A stretch of DNA of 64,000 bases from Ferrimonas sp. YFM (GTDB lineage: Bacteria; Pseudomonadota; Gammaproteobacteria; Enterobacterales; Shewanellaceae), in contig NZ_AP027368.1 of the NCBI RefSeq assembly GCF_030296015.1, forward strand, positions 2,294,001 to 2,358,000. The letters run 5' to 3'. The position numbers and the translations under genes were made by a program. Below the pieces are notes generated by a model, which ran no database searches, had not been told where the DNA came from, and was given only the letters and a program-made list of their open reading frames with translations. Positions 4,283 through 11,796 of the stretch are shown in pieces. Each line of letters opens with the position of its first letter. Position 1 is the stretch's first letter.

Positions 4283-4323
4283 GGCAACCAGGTGAATCCC
4301 CTTGGGCGGTTAACCTGGTTGCC
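4283..4323. repeat. Perfect 11-bp inverted repeat over the kinase stop codon
   Basis: GGCAACCAGGT at 4283-4293 and its exact complement ACCTGGTTGCC at 4313-4323, 19-bp spacer. It sits in the gap between the convergent cyaB and histidine kinase genes and covers the last codons and stop of the kinase. No T run follows on either strand, so it is not a classical intrinsic terminator; a stabilising 3' hairpin of the efflux operon mRNA is more likely. Confidence 0.6.
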
Positions 4324-5629
4324 CGGGCAGCCAGATCGCCGCCTTTAGCCCGCCGTCCTGGCGGTTTTGCAGCTGAATCTGTCCGCCGTGGGCTTCGGCA
4401 ATCTCCCTACACAGGGCCAGCCCCAGGCCGGTTCCCTGATGTTTGGTGGAGTAAAACGGCAGCAACGCCTGATCCAGCACCGCCGGGTTCATGCCACTGC
4501 CTCTGTCCCTGACCACCATCTGTACACCAACGTCGTCGGCTATTACCGACAGGGTGATCTCATCCGACTCACTGCCGCTCTCCGAGGCGTTCTTCAGAAG
4601 ATTCACCAGTACCCGTTCCACCTGGCTGGGGTCAAACCAACCGGGTTTTTCTGGCAATACCCCATCCAGCTTGAACCCATACTGGGCAGAGAGCCCATGG
4701 ACAAACTCTGGCCAGGTGACAGATTCAGGACGAGGGGCCGGCAACTTGGCAAAGGTGGCGTAGCCTTGAATGAAGCGGTTCAGACTGCTGCAGCGCTCTT
4801 CGATGGTGTTGAACACCCGCTGTAACCTGGGATCGCTTTGTTCATCCAGCAGTGCGCGACCGCTGTGACTCATGGAGCTGATGGGGGCGAGGCTGTTGTT
4901 GAGTTCGTGACTGATCACCCGGATCACCTTCTTCCAGGCAGCCGCTTCCTGCCGGGCCAGTTCCCGGGTCAGGCAGCGGATGAGAATCAGCCGGTGGGGC
5001 CGGTTGTGCAACTGGAATCGTCCCTGCACCAGGTGATAGGTGTCACTGCTTCCCTCGGTCAGCTTCAGTTGATACAGACCGTCCTGTTGAGCAGTGAACA
5101 TAGCGCTCACCGCCTCGGGCTGGTCCCGCAACAGGCTATCGAGAGACAGCCCCTCTAACTGACTCTGACCAAAAAAGCGCTCGGTATCCCTGTTCGCCAG
5201 AATCACCCGCCGCTCCTGATCCGTGAGCAGCACCATCACCGGTGAGTTTTGAATCACCTTATCGAGGATCAGCTCCCGTTGATGCAGGGTGTAGCGCTCC
5301 TGTCGCAATTTGACTGCCATCTGGTTGTAATGCACTGACAGCGCCTTGATTTCAGGCGAGCCTCGCACCGGCAGTGACGCACTGAAGTCAGAATCGGAAA
5401 AGTTGAGTACGCCAGCTTCCAGAGATGCCAGCCCTTGGCGCAGTGGCCGGGTCAGATAAAAGAACAGGGTCGCCAGGGGAACGAACAGCAGGCTGACCAG
5501 CACCAGCAGTTGCACCCAGTCTGGCATGGGGCCAAAGTTTGGCAAAAACCGTTGTAATGCTATGGCACCGGCCGCGGCCAGCAGTGACGCCAGCAGCGAC
5601 ATCAGCACCAGCAGTACTCTCAGGCTCAA
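4310..5629 (-). CDS. Sensor histidine kinase, short-loop membrane type
   Basis: 439 residues. Two membrane helices (about 4-24 and 39-60) are joined by only 13-14 residues, so there is almost no periplasmic sensor. Then come a HAMP-like linker (61-115), a PAS-like domain (120-215), the H-box ISHELNNSLAPI with phospho-acceptor His241, N-box LVNLLKNASES, and G-boxes DRGSGM and GTGLGLALCREI. The kinase should phosphorylate the sigma-54 regulator encoded just upstream. TTG start overlapping the regulator stop (TTGA), translationally coupled; GGGGA precedes it. The minimal loop resembles intramembrane-sensing kinases that read the state of a partner ABC transporter, and two FtsX-type permeases are in the same operon (inference). 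Confidence 0.85.
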   Translation of the reverse strand: MSLRVLLVLMSLLASLLAAAGAIALQRFLPNFGPMPDWVQLLVLVSLLFVPLATLFFYLTRPLRQGLASLEAGVLNFSDSDFSASLPVRGSPEIKALSVHYNQMAVKLRQERYTLHQRELILDKVIQNSPVMVLLTDQERRVILANRDTERFFGQSQLEGLSLDSLLRDQPEAVSAMFTAQQDGLYQLKLTEGSSDTYHLVQGRFQLHNRPHRLILIRCLTRELARQEAAAWKKVIRVISHELNNSLAPISSMSHSGRALLDEQSDPRLQRVFNTIEERCSSLNRFIQGYATFAKLPAPRPESVTWPEFVHGLSAQYGFKLDGVLPEKPGWFDPSQVERVLVNLLKNASESGSESDEITLSVIADDVGVQMVVRDRGSGMNPAVLDQALLPFYSTKHQGTGLGLALCREIAEAHGGQIQLQNRQDGGLKAAIWLPGQPG

Positions 5630-6957
5630 CGTTGCATCCCCAGTTTCTCCATGCGGCGGTAGAGCTGTTGGCGCGACACCCCCAGAGCCCTTGCGGCCCG
5701 GGCGATGACGCCGCCATGACGGGCCAGCGCCTGGGTAATGGCGCTGCTGTCCAGCTCGGTGGGAGAGGTGGCCACAACAGGAGGTGGGGCCTCCAGGGCT
5801 AAATCGGCCGCAGTAATCTGGCCACCTTGGCTCAGCAGGCTGGCCCGGGAGATGGCGTTTTCCAGTTCGCGAACGTTGCCCGGCCAGGGGTGGGCCAGCA
5901 GGGCGCGTCTGGCATCCTCCTGCAACTGGGCGTTATCGCCCAGGAAATGCTGGGCCAGCGGCAGGATCTCTTCGGGACGCTCCGCCAGGGGCGGCAGGGC
6001 AAGCTGCACCACATTCAGCCGATAGTAGAGATCCTCACGAAACTCTCCGGCGGCGATGGCCGCGGGCAGATCGGCGTTGGTGGCGCTGATCACTCGTACC
6101 CGAACTTTGCGGGTTTGATGACTGCCCAATCGCTCAAACTCGCCGGTTTGCAGGACCCTCAGCAGTTTTACCTGGCCGGACAGGGGCAGATTGCCCAACT
6201 CATCCAGAAACAGGGTGCCGCCATCGGCGGCTTCAAAGCGGCCAACACGGGTCTTGCTGGCACCGGTATAGGCGCCGGCCTCCGCCCCGAAGAGTTCCGC
6301 TTCCATCAATTCTGAGGGCAGGGCGCCCACATTCACCTTGATAAACGGTTTGTCTCTCAACGGGGAATTGGCGTGAAGGATGTCGGCGATTCGCTCTTTG
6401 CCGGCGCCGTTGGGGCCGGTGATCAACACCGGCAGATCTGACGGGGCCACCCGGGTGGCGGTTTCCAGCAGGGAGACCATGGCCGGGCTGTGCACCTGCA
6501 TGCCGCATAAGTTGAAATTCGACAGCAGATTAAGTTGGTTGGCCTGCTGGTAGTGGCGTGCGAGCTCCTGCCTGCGCAGACGGGACAGCTCCAGCAAGTT
6601 AGTCACGGTCAGGCGCAGTTTCTGGTCATCCCAGGGTTTGCCCAGGTAATCTGCCGCGCCGGCTTTGACCAGCTCTACCGCCATGGCCAGATCCGTCCAG
6701 GCGGTAAGCAGAATGATCGGCAGTCCGGGCTGCTTTTCCTGGAGTTGGTGGAAGAGGGCGCGCCCCTCCTCCCCAGAGGTGGTGTCGGTGCTGAAGTTCA
6801 TGTCCTGAATCACCAGGGCGATCTCCTCCTGCTCCAACACCTCCAACGCCTCGTCAGGAGAGCTGCAGCACAGCGGACTGTGACCATCGAGCTCCAGCAA
6901 CAGGGAGAGCGCCTCTCCGATTGCCGGGTTATCGTCGATGATTAGAATCCTGTCCAT
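5626..6957 (-). CDS. NtrC-type sigma-54 dependent response regulator
   Basis: 443 residues. Receiver domain with phospho-acceptor Asp52 (VIQDMNF), Thr85 and Lys107; AAA+ domain with Walker A GPNGAGKE (181-188), the sigma-54 contact loop GAYTGA (228-233, a Tyr variant of GAFTGA) and Walker B TLFLDELG (248-255); C-terminal Fis-type helix-turn-helix (GGVIARAARALGVSRQQLYR). It should remodel sigma-54 RNA polymerase at the promoter found in front of this operon. ATG at 6957 chosen because AAGGAG lies 10 bp upstream; the longer frame to 6987 lacks one. A small palindrome, ATGGGT-T-ACCCAT at 6975-6987, lies in the 68-bp gap before the gene. Downstream it overlaps the kinase gene. Confidence 0.92.
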   Translation of the reverse strand: MDRILIIDDNPAIGEALSLLLELDGHSPLCCSSPDEALEVLEQEEIALVIQDMNFSTDTTSGEEGRALFHQLQEKQPGLPIILLTAWTDLAMAVELVKAGAADYLGKPWDDQKLRLTVTNLLELSRLRRQELARHYQQANQLNLLSNFNLCGMQVHSPAMVSLLETATRVAPSDLPVLITGPNGAGKERIADILHANSPLRDKPFIKVNVGALPSELMEAELFGAEAGAYTGASKTRVGRFEAADGGTLFLDELGNLPLSGQVKLLRVLQTGEFERLGSHQTRKVRVRVISATNADLPAAIAAGEFREDLYYRLNVVQLALPPLAERPEEILPLAQHFLGDNAQLQEDARRALLAHPWPGNVRELENAISRASLLSQGGQITAADLALEAPPPVVATSPTELDSSAITQALARHGGVIARAARALGVSRQQLYRRMEKLGMQR

Positions 6958-7025
6958 GACCACACTTCTCCTTGATGGGTTACCCATAGGTTACGGATTT
7001 TTAACATAGTATCCAGTACTCTGTC

Positions 7026-8228
7026 CTAGACTGACCGGGTGGCCAGAGCCGGTGAGATCCTGGCGGCCCGCAGGGCCGGTGCTGCCGCGGCCAGCTGGCT
7101 CAGTACCACCAGGCCTACCATGGTGGTCCACAGGTAGAACAGTGGCAGCCGGGTCAGCTCATAGTGGTTCATCAGATATTGGCTGAGGGCCAAGGCCCCC
7201 AGGCTGCCAAGGAAGACGCCCGCCAGACAGATCATCAGGTTCTCCGTCAGAAAATGGCGGACGATGGCGGTACGGGTGGCGCCCAGGGCGCGGCGGGTAC
7301 CAATCTGCTTACGCCGTTGACCCACACTGTAGCTGGCCAGCCCCACCACGCCCAATGCGGTAACCACCAGCAGCAGCATAATGACCACCCCCAACATTTT
7401 GGCCATGGCGTTGTCGTTGCGATAGGCCCGCTCCCGAATCTGGTCAAAGGTGCGCAGGCCACTGATCACCCGATCCGGGTCCACCTTCAACAAGGTCTGT
7501 TCAATCTGCTTAAGGACCGCGTCTCTCTGTCCCGCCTCGGCGCGCACCAGGTAACGGGCGAAGAAAGAGGCGTTCTCCATAGGGATAAGGGCACTGGCAT
7601 AGGTGTGGCTGCGCTGAGCCCAGGGAGTCTGCAACCGGTCATACACCCCAATCACCTCGATGGGGGTATCGCGCAGATACACCTGCTTGCCTACGGCACT
7701 CTCGCCAGGAAAGTAAAGCTCGGCCGCATAACGGCTCAGCATCACCTGGGTCGGCAGGGCCCCCAGCTTGAAATCGGTCATGATGTCGTTGGCGGTGAAG
7801 GCCCGGCCCTCTACCAGGGTCAATCCCAGAGTGGTAAACAGATGCTCGTTGCCCTGGAAGTAACCGATATTCAGGTCGACTCCGTTCTCCTCCAGACTGG
7901 AGCTGATGGTGGTGGAGCTGCCACTGTTGGTCAGAGGGATCTGGTTACTGGCCGAGGCATCAATCACACCGGGAATGGCGCGAAGGGCCTGCTCATCCTG
8001 GCGGCGCTGGCTGATAAAGTCCTTGTCCATGTGCATCTCGGACACGGTAAAGCCGATAAGCTCGGATTCGGCGATCCCCGTATCCCTGGCCATCAGTTCC
8101 AAGCGCTCCTGAATGATGTGGCCGGCGTTGGCTACCACCGCCAGGGTCAGGGCCAGCTGCAAAATGATAAGCAGGGGGCCGCTTTTGCTGCGCAGTAGGG
8201 CAGAGAAGATGGGTTTTATCTCGAACAT
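7026..8228 (-). CDS. FtsX/MacB-type ABC permease, second subunit
   Basis: 400 residues. One N-terminal helix (about 17-38), a long periplasmic MacB_PCD-like domain (40-280; contains EVIGVYDR), then three C-terminal helices (about 282-305, 330-355, 370-390) with the cytoplasmic FtsX segment QRRKQIGTRRALGATR, which couples to the ATPase. Such subunits do not form a classic channel but work as mechanotransmitters with an adaptor of the HlyD/MacA type. It starts 9 bp after the first permease (AGGAGAT upstream of ATG) and ends 68 bp before the regulator gene. The two permeases are related but distinct, so the pump is probably a heterodimer. Confidence 0.85.
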   Translation of the reverse strand: MFEIKPIFSALLRSKSGPLLIILQLALTLAVVANAGHIIQERLELMARDTGIAESELIGFTVSEMHMDKDFISQRRQDEQALRAIPGVIDASASNQIPLTNSGSSTTISSSLEENGVDLNIGYFQGNEHLFTTLGLTLVEGRAFTANDIMTDFKLGALPTQVMLSRYAAELYFPGESAVGKQVYLRDTPIEVIGVYDRLQTPWAQRSHTYASALIPMENASFFARYLVRAEAGQRDAVLKQIEQTLLKVDPDRVISGLRTFDQIRERAYRNDNAMAKMLGVVIMLLLVVTALGVVGLASYSVGQRRKQIGTRRALGATRTAIVRHFLTENLMICLAGVFLGSLGALALSQYLMNHYELTRLPLFYLWTTMVGLVVLSQLAAAAPALRAARISPALATRSV

Positions 8229-8237
8229 GATGATCTC

Positions 8238-9551
8238 CTACTGGCTCTTAAGGTAGGTGGCTGGGTTGGTGCGGCCGATTCGCCAGGCGGGAAACAGCCC
8301 GGCCAGCAGTGCCGCGATGGTGGACAGGGTGATCAGGGCCATCAGAATGGTGAAATCCATCCGCGCCAGCTGGTCATAACCTGGATAGAGCTGCCTGAGT
8401 CCGGCCAATCCCAGCAGGGAGAACAGGCTGCCCAGCAGACCTCCCAGCACACCTATCACCATCACTTCCATCATATGCTGTGCCAGGATCTGCCCCTGAC
8501 TGGCGCCCAATGCCCGGCGAATGCCTGCATGATTGGCCCGGCGCAGGAACTTGGCCAGCAACAGGCCAACCATGTTTACCAGACACACCAGCAGGAACAA
8601 GAAGGAGAGCGCCAGCAAGATGCGGTTGTCTTCGCTGACCACCTCGTTGTACTCCAGCCACTGGCTGACGCTGCGAAGGCTGGCAATGGCGGACTCGGAG
8701 GGGAACCGGCCCAGGGTTTGCTGCTGCTCGACGTAGGCTGCCAGCTGCTGCAGGTAGGTCGCCTTATGCTCGGTGCCTTCGAGCTCGACCCAGTACTGAA
8801 TCCAGTACTGCTCTGAGGTCAGCCTGTCTGCGTAGCTGTTGATCTCCTCCTGCTTCCAGCCATTGGTGTTCCCCCAGGCTTCCACTTCATGGACCGGCAA
8901 CAGGCTGAAGGGGATGAACATCTCCTCATGCATGTGGAAGGCACCGTTGTTGACGTCGTAAAACAGCGGCTGAGGTCGGTAATCTTCAACAATGCCGACG
9001 ACTGTGTAGCTCTTGCCGTTGGCGTCTATGGTCTTGCCGACGTTGTTGCCCCCCCCAAACAGCTTATCGTTGAGGCTCTGGCTGATGACGGTAACCGGAG
9101 AAGCCAGTTCGTCTTGCTCGACACTCCAGGCAGTGCCATGGAGAAAATTCACGTCAAACATGGGGAAGAAGTCGCGGGTGGCAGCCCGGCCATCGGCGAT
9201 GAAGGGGTAGGCATCGGCCTTGGCCGGCTTGACGGTAAAACCGGTACGAATCATCGGCGACTGGCGCACCGGTCCGTCCTGCTGACTCAGGTTAACCGCA
9301 TCCTGGTAGGTGATCTGATAGTAGAGGCCATCGTCTTTATCGGTGTCATGACCATCGCCATGACTCTTCAACTGCAGGGCATATAGGTTGTCATCCTTAT
9401 GGGCCATGGGGTTGTGGCTCATGGTGTAGTGCACCGTCAGGCTGGTGCCTGCGGTGCCAATGCCGATGGCGATGGCCAGCACCATCAGGGCGCTGATCAC
9501 CGGGCTCTGTTTCAGGCTGAGCCAGGCCAGCTTCAGGTAATATGCGAGCAT
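8238..9551 (-). CDS. FtsX/MacB-type ABC permease, first subunit
   Basis: 437 residues from the ATG at 9551, which has AGGAG 6 bp upstream; an upstream extension to 9638 only overlaps the ATPase gene. Architecture: helix at about 19-40, periplasmic MacB_PCD-like domain (41-300), three C-terminal helices with the coupling segment RRANHAGIRRALGASQ. The periplasmic part begins with an unusual stretch rich in His and Asp (SHGDGHDTDKDD, residues near 65-77), which could bind metal or simply be a flexible loop. The gene follows the ATPase gene by 10 bp. Expected to pair with the second permease and the ATPase to export a hydrophobic or peptide-like compound; substrate unknown. Confidence 0.85.
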   Translation of the reverse strand: MLAYYLKLAWLSLKQSPVISALMVLAIAIGIGTAGTSLTVHYTMSHNPMAHKDDNLYALQLKSHGDGHDTDKDDGLYYQITYQDAVNLSQQDGPVRQSPMIRTGFTVKPAKADAYPFIADGRAATRDFFPMFDVNFLHGTAWSVEQDELASPVTVISQSLNDKLFGGGNNVGKTIDANGKSYTVVGIVEDYRPQPLFYDVNNGAFHMHEEMFIPFSLLPVHEVEAWGNTNGWKQEEINSYADRLTSEQYWIQYWVELEGTEHKATYLQQLAAYVEQQQTLGRFPSESAIASLRSVSQWLEYNEVVSEDNRILLALSFLFLLVCLVNMVGLLLAKFLRRANHAGIRRALGASQGQILAQHMMEVMVIGVLGGLLGSLFSLLGLAGLRQLYPGYDQLARMDFTILMALITLSTIAALLAGLFPAWRIGRTNPATYLKSQ

Positions 9552-9561
9552 GGTGTTCTCC

Positions 9562-10275
9562 TCAGGCCTGGGCCGCGGCTGCCTGCGGGGCCCGGCGACG
9601 ATTGAGCATCGCCAGATCGCACACCTGACCATCGACAATGTGGATATTTCGTTGTGATTGGGCGGCCTGTTCGGCGTCGTGGGTCACCATGATGATGGTG
9701 GTACCGTTGCGGTTGATGTCGCGCAGCAGTTCCATTACCTGGCGCGCCATCATGGAGTCCAGGTTACCCGTGGGTTCATCGGCCAGCAGGATGCGAGGCT
9801 CACCGGCCAGGGCTCGGGCGATGGCCACCCGCTGCTGCTGTCCGCCGGACAGCTGAGAGGGCAGGTGTTTCATCCTGGCGGCCAGGCCGACCTGCTCCAG
9901 GGCTTGCTCGATGCGGCGCTTACGCTCGGCGGCGTTAAATCCGCGATAGCGCAACGGCACGTCCACGTTGTCGAACAGATTCAGGTCCGGCAGCAGGTTG
10001 TAGCCCTGGAAGATAAAACCGATCTTCTCGTTGCGCAGCTGCGAGCGCTCACGGTCGGTGAGCATGCTGATCTCCTCACCATCCAGGTAGTAACGGCCGC
10101 TGCTGGCGCTCTCCAGCAGGCCGGCGATGTTCAGGAAGGTGGTTTTGCCTGAGCCGGAAGGGCCAGTCACCGCCACAAACTCTCCCTCTTTCACCTCCAG
10201 GTGAAAGCCTCTCAGGGCGTGGGTTTCAATAAGATCGGTGCGAAACACCTTGCCAATGTTGTCCATGTGCAGCAT
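9562..10275 (-). CDS. ABC transporter ATPase, MacB/LolD type
   Basis: 237 residues. Walker A GPSGSGKTT (38-46), Q-loop Gln90 (IFQGYN), signature LSGGQQQR (142-149), Walker B ILLADEPTG (162-170) followed by NLDS, and the switch His in MVTHD. The sequence is typical of the MacB/LolD/FtsE group that serves FtsX-type permeases. ATP hydrolysis in the cytoplasm drives the two permeases encoded directly downstream. AAAGGAG lies 7 bp before the ATG, and only 11 bp separate it from the adaptor gene. The C-terminal tail is alanine-rich. Confidence 0.93.
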   Translation of the reverse strand: MLHMDNIGKVFRTDLIETHALRGFHLEVKEGEFVAVTGPSGSGKTTFLNIAGLLESASSGRYYLDGEEISMLTDRERSQLRNEKIGFIFQGYNLLPDLNLFDNVDVPLRYRGFNAAERKRRIEQALEQVGLAARMKHLPSQLSGGQQQRVAIARALAGEPRILLADEPTGNLDSMMARQVMELLRDINRNGTTIIMVTHDAEQAAQSQRNIHIVDGQVCDLAMLNRRRAPQAAAAQA

Positions 10276-10286
10276 GAGGCACTCCT

Positions 10287-11540
10287 TTACTTGATGATGA
10301 TCTCGCTGCTTTGCAGCAGCCCTGAGAGATCGGAAATGATGATCTGGTCGCCAACGCTGAGTCCGTCGACCACTTCGACGTGGGTCAGGCTGGTGGCGCC
10401 CAATGAAAGGGGGGTTTTGTGGGCCAGTTGCCCGTCGACTCGATAGGCGATACGGCCATGACCGGATTGAACGAAGGCGCCGCGGCGCACCATCAGCACG
10501 TCTTCCAGAGACTCCAGCAGTATCCGCGCAGTCAGTCTCTGGTTTTGGCGCAGCCTCAGGTCAACGCCGTCAAAGCTGACGCGCACCTTTACCTGGTTGG
10601 CCACAATCTCCGGGGAGATCCCGGCGATCTCACCCTTGAGTGCCTGACCGCCCACGGACAGCGCCACCGGCATGGTCAGCCCCAGTTCGTCGGCGTAACT
10701 CTCCGGTACTTCGAGCTCCGCCTGGTAGTCGGTCAGACTCACCACGGACAGCAGCGCCTGGTTGTCTGCCACCTGCTCGCGCTCCTCGACCAGGGTATTG
10801 CCCACCAGGCCGGACAGGGGAGAGAGCAGGGAGAGGGCATCCACCTGACGGCTCAGTTCGGCGACCTTGAGGTTTTGACGCTTGAGCTCAACTTCGGCAG
10901 CCTGCTGCTCGAACTTCAGGGTGTCCCGTGCCAGGGCTATCTCCTGTTCGGCGTGATAAAAGGCGATCTTGGCGCTGGCAAACTCGTCCTGGGCTTTCTG
11001 ATGGTCGATGTCGCTGATGAGGGAGGTTTCGGCGGCCTTGTCGGCCCGGCGCTTTTCCCGCTCGGCGGCCACCAGCTTGACCTTGGCTTGATCCAGGCGA
11101 CGCTTCAGCTCCAGCTCCTTGCGGCGGGCGTCCAGTTGCCGGCGCTGCAGATCCAGAGCCAGGCTGGCTTCCACTGCCTGCTCCTGGGACAGCTCCGACT
11201 CCAGCTCAGGGCTGTCGACCACAGCCAGCAACTGGCCGGTTTCCACCAGCTGACCAGGTTGTACTTTTAAAGAGATGCGCCCGGCAGAGGGGCTGTAGAT
11301 CACCGGTGCGTTGGCGGCGACGATGCGACCCCGGGCAGAAATTTCGCGGACCATGTCGCCCCGCTCAACCGTCGCCATCTGAAGCCGGCTGCCACGCACG
11401 CTCTGCTGACCCTGGCCATAGCTGGCCCAGAGATAGCCGCTGCTCACCAGCACCAGGCAAAGCCCTAAAGCCGGCGCCAGCCAGCGGCGCTTAGGCTTGC
11501 TCTGGCGGGAGACATCTTGTCCTGAGGTATCCTGAATCAT
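10287..11540 (-). CDS. HlyD/MacA-type periplasmic adaptor, first gene of sigma-54 operon
   Basis: 417 residues from the ATG at 11540. A basic N terminus (KPKRRW) precedes one membrane helix (about 19-40); then a lipoyl half-motif (GRISLKVQPGQLVETGQLL), a long alpha-helical coiled-coil hairpin (about 100-215, rich in Glu, Lys and Arg), the second lipoyl half (LLSPLSGLVGNTLVEE) and beta-barrel domains. It links inner-membrane ABC permeases to an outer-membrane channel, which is not encoded here. A longer GTG-started frame to 11603 is rejected because the sigma-54 promoter at 11583-11599 lies inside it; transcription would begin near 11573. The ribosome site in front of ATG 11540 is weak. Confidence 0.88.
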   Translation of the reverse strand: MIQDTSGQDVSRQSKPKRRWLAPALGLCLVLVSSGYLWASYGQGQQSVRGSRLQMATVERGDMVREISARGRIVAANAPVIYSPSAGRISLKVQPGQLVETGQLLAVVDSPELESELSQEQAVEASLALDLQRRQLDARRKELELKRRLDQAKVKLVAAEREKRRADKAAETSLISDIDHQKAQDEFASAKIAFYHAEQEIALARDTLKFEQQAAEVELKRQNLKVAELSRQVDALSLLSPLSGLVGNTLVEEREQVADNQALLSVVSLTDYQAELEVPESYADELGLTMPVALSVGGQALKGEIAGISPEIVANQVKVRVSFDGVDLRLRQNQRLTARILLESLEDVLMVRRGAFVQSGHGRIAYRVDGQLAHKTPLSLGATSLTHVEVVDGLSVGDQIIISDLSGLLQSSEIIIK

Positions 11541-11582
11541 CACAGTGTCCGTTTGTAACCGATGTATGAATGACTGTGATGT

Positions 11583-11599
11583 TTGCAGGAGCTGTGCCA
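11583..11599 (-). promoter_or_regulatory. Sigma-54 (RpoN) promoter of the efflux operon
   Basis: On the minus strand the sequence TTGGCACAGCTCCTGCA matches the sigma-54 consensus TGGCAC-N5-TTGCA closely, with GG at 11598-11597, exactly 10 bases, then GC at 11586-11585. The predicted transcription start near 11573 leaves a leader of about 33 bases before the adaptor ATG. The operon encodes its own sigma-54 activator, and likely activator sites lie about 110 bp upstream, which is a normal distance for an enhancer of this type. Confidence 0.85.
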
Positions 11600-11667
11600 A
11601 CACACCAAGTTGGCACTATACCTATGAAATGTATAGTTTTTTGGGAATCTGCAGGGCAGGGCGGTGA

Positions 11668-11703
11668 TGTCCGTTGTGTCCGAAGTGTCCGCGGCGGACA
11701 CTT
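11668..11703. promoter_or_regulatory. Four TGTCCG half-sites at 9-bp period, likely activator (UAS) sites
   Basis: TGTCCG begins at 11668, 11677 and 11686, and the inverted copy CGGACA begins at 11695, each exactly 9 bp apart. The last two form a perfect 21-bp palindrome at 11683-11703 with 10-bp arms (AAGTGTCCGC and its complement) around one central G. A further half-site, AGTGTCCG, is in the leader near 11544-11551. Position about 110 bp upstream of the predicted start fits binding by the NtrC-type regulator of this operon. Regulator-site pairing is inferred. Confidence 0.7.
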
Positions 11704-11761
11704 TTAGCTGTCCACCACCTACCGACGGGACACCGGCATCTTTGCAAAGACAGGTTTTCCA

Positions 11762-11796
11762 AAGAAACCAGCCCGGTGATATTCACCACCGGGCTG
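11762..11796 (-). terminator. Terminator of the AbgT-type transporter gene
   Basis: On the minus strand, AGCCCGGTG, an 8-base loop, CACCGGGCT, then GGTTTCTTT. A 9-bp GC-rich stem about 20 bp after the transporter stop codon, with an imperfect T run. Confidence 0.65.

Follow-up and report, generated by a model that had tools for sequence, protein, structure and literature searches.

The window, the whole 64,000-nucleotide stretch of DNA analyzed here, comes from a Ferrimonas sp. whose nearest named relative is F. futtsuensis (adaptor 96% identical). It carries six minus-strand genes running from 11540 to 4310:

10287..11540, minus strand: periplasmic adaptor of the HlyD/RND_mfp type, starting at ATG 11540 (RND_mfp profile, 110 bits against a cut-off of 94.9)
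9562..10275, minus strand: ABC ATPase of the LolD/MacB type (ABC_tran profile)
8238..9551, minus strand: FtsX/MacB-type permease 1, with ATG 9551 preferred to TTG 9638 because the match to relatives begins there
7026..8228, minus strand: FtsX/MacB-type permease 2 (profile match)
5626..6987, minus strand: NtrC-type response regulator with a receiver domain, an AAA+ domain bearing GAYTGA and a Fis-type HTH bearing SRQQLYRR (profiles and sequence)
4310..5629, minus strand: HAMP-PAS sensor histidine kinase, its gene overlapping that of the regulator by 4 nt

The first four genes resemble pumps of the MacAB and darobactin-exporter types, which likewise combine an adaptor, a LolD-like ATPase and FtsX/MacB permeases, and the adaptor, ABC ATPase and MacB-type periplasmic core with FtsX domain (PF12704, PF02687) place them among MacAB-like tripartite efflux systems. 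From these protein families we infer that the pump exports. It differs from MacAB and DarD in that ATPase and permeases are separate genes, with two permeases, and it falls below the equivalog cut-offs of both (268.8 bits with the DarD model; cut-offs 375 for DarD and 966 for MacB). No outer-membrane channel gene is found among the six operon genes, and defense-system models match only generic AAA+, ABC and FtsX-like parts. In the part of the study of S. maltophilia MacABC considered here, the two-component genes are divergent, whereas in Ferrimonas they lie within the operon (PMC8277102). The fifth gene, which a sequence-only reading of this DNA had called an NtrC-type regulator with GAYTGA, carries that motif and exceeds the cut-offs of PF00072, PF00158 and PF02954. 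Among the matches listed (25 of 82 families, PilR not being one of the 25), it stays under the curated equivalog cut-offs for GlrR (309 of 763 bits), AtoC (351 of 714) and the PEP-CTERM regulator (343 of 502.6). The kinase exceeds the cut-offs for HATPase_c, HAMP and PAS and scores 26.2 with HisKA, against a cut-off of 26.9.

Upstream of the adaptor gene, and reaching into it, lie the following features, with positions counted from the predicted transcription start and half-sites written as read on the operon strand:

11518..11523, minus strand: degenerate half-site AGGACA inside the adaptor gene, at codons S6-G7-Q8 (sequence)
11546..11551, minus strand: half-site CGGACA in the leader at +23, the fifth exact copy
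11584..11599, minus strand: sigma-54 promoter (-24/-12) TGGCACAGCTCCTGCA, GG-N10-GC, with predicted transcription start 11573
11668..11673, minus strand: half-site CGGACA at -100, exact
11677..11682, minus strand: half-site CGGACA at -109, exact
11686..11691, minus strand: half-site CGGACA at -118, exact; in the family, half-sites are most frequent at -116 to -120
11695..11700, plus strand: opposed half-site, TGTCCG on the operon strand, at -127, forming with 11686-11691 the dyad TGTCCG-N3-CGGACA
11683..11703, no strand: 21-bp palindrome AAGTGTCCGC-G-GCGGACACTT (sequence)
11709..11714, minus strand: one-mismatch half-site TGGACA (TGTCCA on the plus strand) at -141 (sequence)
11769..11796, minus strand: terminator-like hairpin, 3' of the upstream AbgT-like gene and between that gene and the array

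The promoter's GG and GC are separated by 10 bp and embedded in a TGGCAC-N5-TTGC context. Read on the minus strand from 11599 to 11584, TGGCACAGCTCCTGCA departs from TGGCAC-N5-TTGCW at one position and is the sole one-mismatch match among the matches listed (200 of 286); the loose sigma-54 pattern shows no enrichment in the window (286 matches against 345 expected). Its last base lies 43 nt upstream of ATG 11540, and taking the C of GC as -12 gives a start at 11573. The sequence-only reading had described a near-consensus sigma-54 promoter with GG-N10-GC spacing 43 bp before the adaptor ATG, together with TGTCCG at 11668, 11677 and 11686 and inverted at 11695, with a period of exactly 9 bp and a closing 21-bp palindrome. 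The sequence bears out all of this. It had also set the adaptor start at 11540, not at GTG 11603, and relatives agree: leaders of promoters in the family (Shewanellaceae) range from 22 to 162 nt, and the adaptor protein match starts at residue 1, with MIxDT in most, so 11540 is right. Absent from that reading were the half-sites at 11546-11551, 11709-11714 and 11518-11523; the place of the 11709-11714 copy holds an exact CGGACA in three relatives (L075, L076 and L077). An inverted repeat, GTGCCAA...TTGGCAC, overlaps the -24 element (11594-11616); as a candidate feature it was set aside, being lost in F. futtsuensis (L005). The hairpin is weak by itself because the window holds four such sites against 5.3 expected, and the AbgT-like call for the gene beyond it scores under the model's cut-off.

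The operon is widespread in the family. An adaptor match occurs in 128 of 152 genomes and a close orthologue in 127, the sole match in G099 being 26% identical and that genome counted as lacking the operon; one homologue (G082:C1:1162640-1163885) matches in two separate pieces and is probably split across two frames. The regulator is found at E<=1e-120 in 126 of the 152 genomes, all within the 127 with a close adaptor. The promoters of 124 of the 127 close orthologues could be put in register, the exceptions being L084, L088 and L092. In 123 of the 124, the top sigma-54 site before the ATG scores at least 20.4, and the remaining one is a sequence that is too short; second-best sites in the same sequences score 13.2 to 20.2. 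Position counts use 123 promoters and exclude L169, whose fetched 460 bases stop short of its promoter, with the dyad further upstream. Among these the -12 element is GC in 65, GT in 52 and GA or GG in 6. The TGTCCG cluster, whose conservation in orthologous promoters the earlier reading had proposed to check, is kept: from -260 to -40, at least three exact CGGACA/TGTCCG half-sites are present in 121 of 123 promoters, most often four or five, and some lineages (L213-L215) have few.

The strict dyad GTGTCCG-N0-3-CGGACAC follows the operon. It is present in 94 of 152 family genomes (92 of the 127 that have the operon and 2 of the 25 that lack it), once in 87 of the 94 and twice in 7; among the matches listed, both copies stand at the operon promoter in 5 of these 7, and places away from the operon are a second site in G007 and sites in G063, G075, G076 and G099. 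This Ferrimonas genome has the strict dyad once, and one other exact TGTCCG-N3-CGGACA inside a 451-aa ORF that is NqrA-like by eye. A wider regulon in this genome was considered and rejected, with 16 CGGACA pairs within 20 bp against 52 in a reversed control; the only two overlapping CGGACA pairs are both at this promoter. These dyad numbers fit a regulator dedicated to its own operon, in a search for exact dyads that would miss targets with half-sites alone.

The upstream half-sites are predominantly co-oriented. In the 123 family promoters 415 point one way and 176 the other, the majority orientation being the commoner in 117. Outside Ferrimonas, we took 68 family promoters, one per cluster of similar ones. 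Among their 227 forward half-sites, spacings of 18-24 or 30-33 bp make up 145 of 159, a period of 10.6 bp, that of a DNA turn, fits best, and the half-sites keep a constant phase relative to the promoter (R 0.64 at 10.5 bp, against a maximum of 0.26 in 2000 nulls in which arrays were slid). This fixed phase puts the half-sites on one face of the helix. The sequence-only reading had proposed that a 9-bp period, which does not match one DNA turn, might mean side-by-side or alternating-face binding. The 9-bp spacing is real within Ferrimonas, where the best period among eight representatives is 8.7 bp and 5 of 9 promoters show exact 9-9 runs, a sixth having 9-10; as a general geometry it fails, and a 9-bp or alternating-face rule is ruled out by the spacings and phase outside Ferrimonas. 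Alternating-face binding finds no support in the other genera of the family, and 9-bp packing itself does not demand it, since neighbors would then stand only about 50 degrees apart.

Dyad spacing is less constrained. The opposed pair in Ferrimonas is TGTCCG-N3-CGGACA (9 pairs, 8 promoters), and in the family outside Ferrimonas it is mostly TGTCCGCGGACA (52 pairs; N1 in 3, N2 in 10). A Glaciecola MAG (L019) holds both dyad forms. Lone half-sites without an exact opposed partner have no degenerate partner either (260 sites, consensus A.CGGACACTTT). A rigid dimer as the binder would not allow a spacing that varies from N3 in Ferrimonas to mostly N0 or N2 elsewhere. Two candidate determinants of the spacing were tried and rejected, neither giving a simple match by eye: the length of the AAA+-HTH linker (short-linker genera have N0) and the choice of SRQQ or SRQA in the recognition helix (the SRQA Ferrimonas G002 and G008 have N3).

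The array continues past the transcription start. An exact half-site lies in the leader of 83 of 123 family promoters (52 of 76 by cluster, where shuffled leaders would give 1.7%). The 63 forward copies fall at +11 to +15 (4), +23 to +27 (44), +34 to +38 (10) and +43 to +48 (5), and the 20 inverted ones at +16 to +18. Among representatives outside Ferrimonas, the phase of 37 leader sites is fixed with R 0.83 at 10.5 bp, against a maximum of 0.48 in 5000 nulls. Four of the promoters without an exact site have TGGACA in the leader (L176, L081, L133 and L166, at +14, +25, +44 and +45, respectively). In the gene itself, the Gly7 codon is GGA in 53 of 77 SGQ adaptors (39 of 54 by cluster), compared with 45 of 758 (6%) later Gly codons in 27 adaptors. 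GGA at this codon and a leader half-site are not significantly associated (30/8 versus 9/7, p 0.11).

These downstream half-sites probably bind the regulator as well and serve to tune or restrain the autoregulatory loop. That they serve negative feedback, the regulator blocking its own promoter at high level instead of helping activation, is a real possibility, if not the one we would expect to hold: at +11 to +48 a bound protein would meet the departing polymerase. Against this reading, 40 of the 123 promoters, groups of near-identical ones included, have no exact leader half-site, and FleQ and FlrC are known to have activator sites past the start of sigma-54 promoters. The FleQ and FlrC sites resemble the leader half-sites, which here occur only in addition to an upstream array. 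We think it unlikely that the copies in the leader and at codons 6-8 act as RNA features, for example as GGA motifs recognized near the ribosome-binding site by a protein of the CsrA type. CsrA prefers GGA, the copies hold GGA adjoining the ribosome-binding region, and in 12 of the 53 GGA cases the in-gene triplet is not preceded by C. The leader copies, however, are the same 6-mer as the upstream array and keep a fixed phase to the promoter, recurring roughly every 10 bp, and an inverted site, as in 20 of the 83 promoters, does not place a GGA in the transcript there.

The array is likely bound by the regulator that the operon itself encodes, as judged from how promoters and regulators travel together. 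Outside the family, a draw of 394 genomes yielded 58 adaptor homologues (E<=1e-60) in 51 genomes, and the presence of a downstream regulator (E<=1e-90, same contig) was judged by hand from coordinates. L289 was excluded because it lies at a contig end; so does L261, which was counted among the regulator-less loci because nothing in its whole genome matched. Of the 40 loci with the regulator downstream, 33 have at least two half-sites no more than 350 bp from the start and 39 have a sigma-54 promoter; at loci without it the counts are 0 of 17 for both (Fisher, 2.5e-9 for the array and 1.3e-13 for the promoter), and sigma-54 scores are 15.0-19.4 without the regulator and 19.9-25.2 with it. The 17 regulator-less homologues are L231, L233, L243, L251 and 13 other loci. 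The proposal of the sequence-only reading that the operon encodes its own activator is supported by the fifth gene and by this co-occurrence.

The exceptions point the same way. Six of the seven array-less loci with a regulator carry CGAACA, and their regulators have SRSALYRR where the SRQ kind otherwise stands (L284/L303, L288/L304, L294/L305, L296/L306, L282/L302 and L301/L308); the seventh has CGTACA with an SRQSLYRR regulator. Out of 182 promoters we assembled 71 regulator-promoter pairs, 70 of which could be read (the helix is unreadable in L330). CGGACA outnumbers CGAACA with 64 of 64 SRQ regulators, and CGAACA outnumbers CGGACA with 6 of 6 SRS regulators. The association between Q/S and half-site over these 70 pairs has p 7.6e-9, a value that is not that of an independent test, since it reflects a single event on the tree, noticed prior to counting: the SRS regulators form one clade (support 100/99, in a tree with a long-branch warning), so that helix and half-site shifted in a single joint change. 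Three genomes (G432, G190 and G209) hold both kinds of operon, each with its own half-site. As CGAACA goes with SRSALYRR and CGGACA with SRQ-LYRR, the protein most likely to bind each array is the regulator encoded by that operon.

We also made a prediction, fixed before the sequences were fetched, that six SRQ regulators of other orders should have CGGACA. All five testable promoters, two of them from one genus, hold at least two copies (2, 2, 6, 2 and 4), and their sigma-54 sites score 22.2 to 24.7; in one there is also a CGAACA much farther out, at -314. An adaptor search in L363 found none, and the recognition helix of L354 is unreadable. The pairing of residue and base does not hold everywhere. 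Judged by eye, CGGACA is the upstream half-site in Saprospiraceae whose regulators carry TRS[SA]LYRR (two and one TGTTCG in L026, one in L028), and the SRQS regulator of L307/L292, counted among the 64, goes with two CGTACA and one CGGACA. Further afield, an Acidobacteria MAG (L022) has the same six-gene order, SRQALYRK, a sigma-54-like promoter and CGGACA palindromes. In Pseudoalteromonas phenolica (L030 and L031), a distant adaptor (24-27%) is preceded by the palindrome AGTGTCTCAAAATTGAGACACT about 155 bp upstream; the L030 regulator has another recognition helix, SRSGYYRR.

It is very improbable that the array belongs to a different regulator, either a local repressor or some global factor, and that the NtrC-type protein acts elsewhere. 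Lone half-sites without a conserved partner and a variable dyad spacing would be unusual for a Fis-type dimer; set against this are the absence of array and promoter at all 17 loci without the regulator gene and the joint shift of half-site letter and recognition helix. That the cluster is a functionless product of chance or slippage has next to no probability: slippage could yield a 9-bp tandem unit, but none of 300 dinucleotide shuffles of the window reaches four half-sites in 33 bp (maximum 3, in two shuffles), and the cluster is conserved across genera though its spacing differs.

Taken together, our findings make it highly probable that the promoter at this locus drives an efflux module that is self-contained and activates itself. 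At the level of sequence the reading is anchored in the sigma-54 promoter, the CGGACA array, the gene order, the co-occurrence and the joint change of helix and half-site; the positive direction of control and RpoN dependence are what the protein families would predict. For NtrC-type activators phosphorylation, looping, RpoN dependence and the direction of activation are established. Here, the kinase would sense a substance or a state of the envelope and phosphorylate the regulator, whose Fis-type domains would bind the dyad and the extra half-sites, on one helix face in most relatives and, in this Ferrimonas, packed at 9 bp with neighbors still about 50 degrees apart. The AAA+ ring would then assemble and, through DNA looping, its GAYTGA loops would open the waiting sigma-54 polymerase. 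Transcription would give the pump together with more regulator and kinase, closing a positive loop.

Promoters of this kind are already known, as the precedents of GlrR, Desulfovibrio and NmpR indicate. In the part of the published work on GlrR (QseF) considered here, its sites at glmY and glmZ are TGTC-N10-GACA, with a sigma-54 promoter (PMC4987338). GlrR is like the present regulator in being of the NtrC type and in using a sigma-54 promoter and inverted TGTC/GACA sites; it differs in the TGTC-GACA gap, N10 as against N7 in Ferrimonas and mostly N4 in other genera of the family, and in driving small RNAs, where the operon here has extra lone half-sites and a regulator that it encodes itself. 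NmpR of Myxococcus xanthus, according to the portion of its description covered, binds ahead of its own operon, which is a different one concerned with pilus control. For Desulfovibrio vulgaris, the section covered describes sigma-54 activators, DVU2956 included, whose genes adjoin their own promoter and which have mostly one to four target operons, with TGT/ACA half-sites 9, 11 or 12 bp apart and, in one region, three conserved half-sites with binding shown by gel shift (PMC4641369). These activators go with other genes, and arrays of four to seven half-sites are absent from that section (PMC4641369). More generally, genes for the envelope and for transport are a recurring target of sigma-54 in the portions of the literature covered.

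PilR of Pseudomonas has tandem (C/G)TGTC sites in front of pilA, and so resembles this locus in its tandem TGTC half-sites upstream of a sigma-54 promoter and differs in having a pilin as target. Among the matches listed in a literature search with subscription journals mostly outside its scope, no title or abstract start concerned this operon or array. The less usual part is the long, phase-locked array that continues into the gene.

The layout recurs in many related bacteria and, from the sequences compared, looks like a recognizable kind of activator-dependent switch. More tentatively, and as a possibility rather than an expectation, it may define a class of control region in which a dyad and lone half-sites, mostly co-oriented and in helical register, extend from about -180 through the start into the first codons and constrain the leader and codon choice, with one pairing of helix residue and base keeping two self-activating pumps apart in a cell. 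The module gives a testable wiring of signal, kinase, regulator, promoter and pump. Its adaptor has a close orthologue in 127 of 152 family genomes and can be traced to other orders of the class, and the family thereby offers a natural set of promoters in which half-site and helical phase are kept and number and dyad spacing are free, along with naturally occurring regulator pairs in which a residue of the recognition helix and one base of their sites differ in concert.
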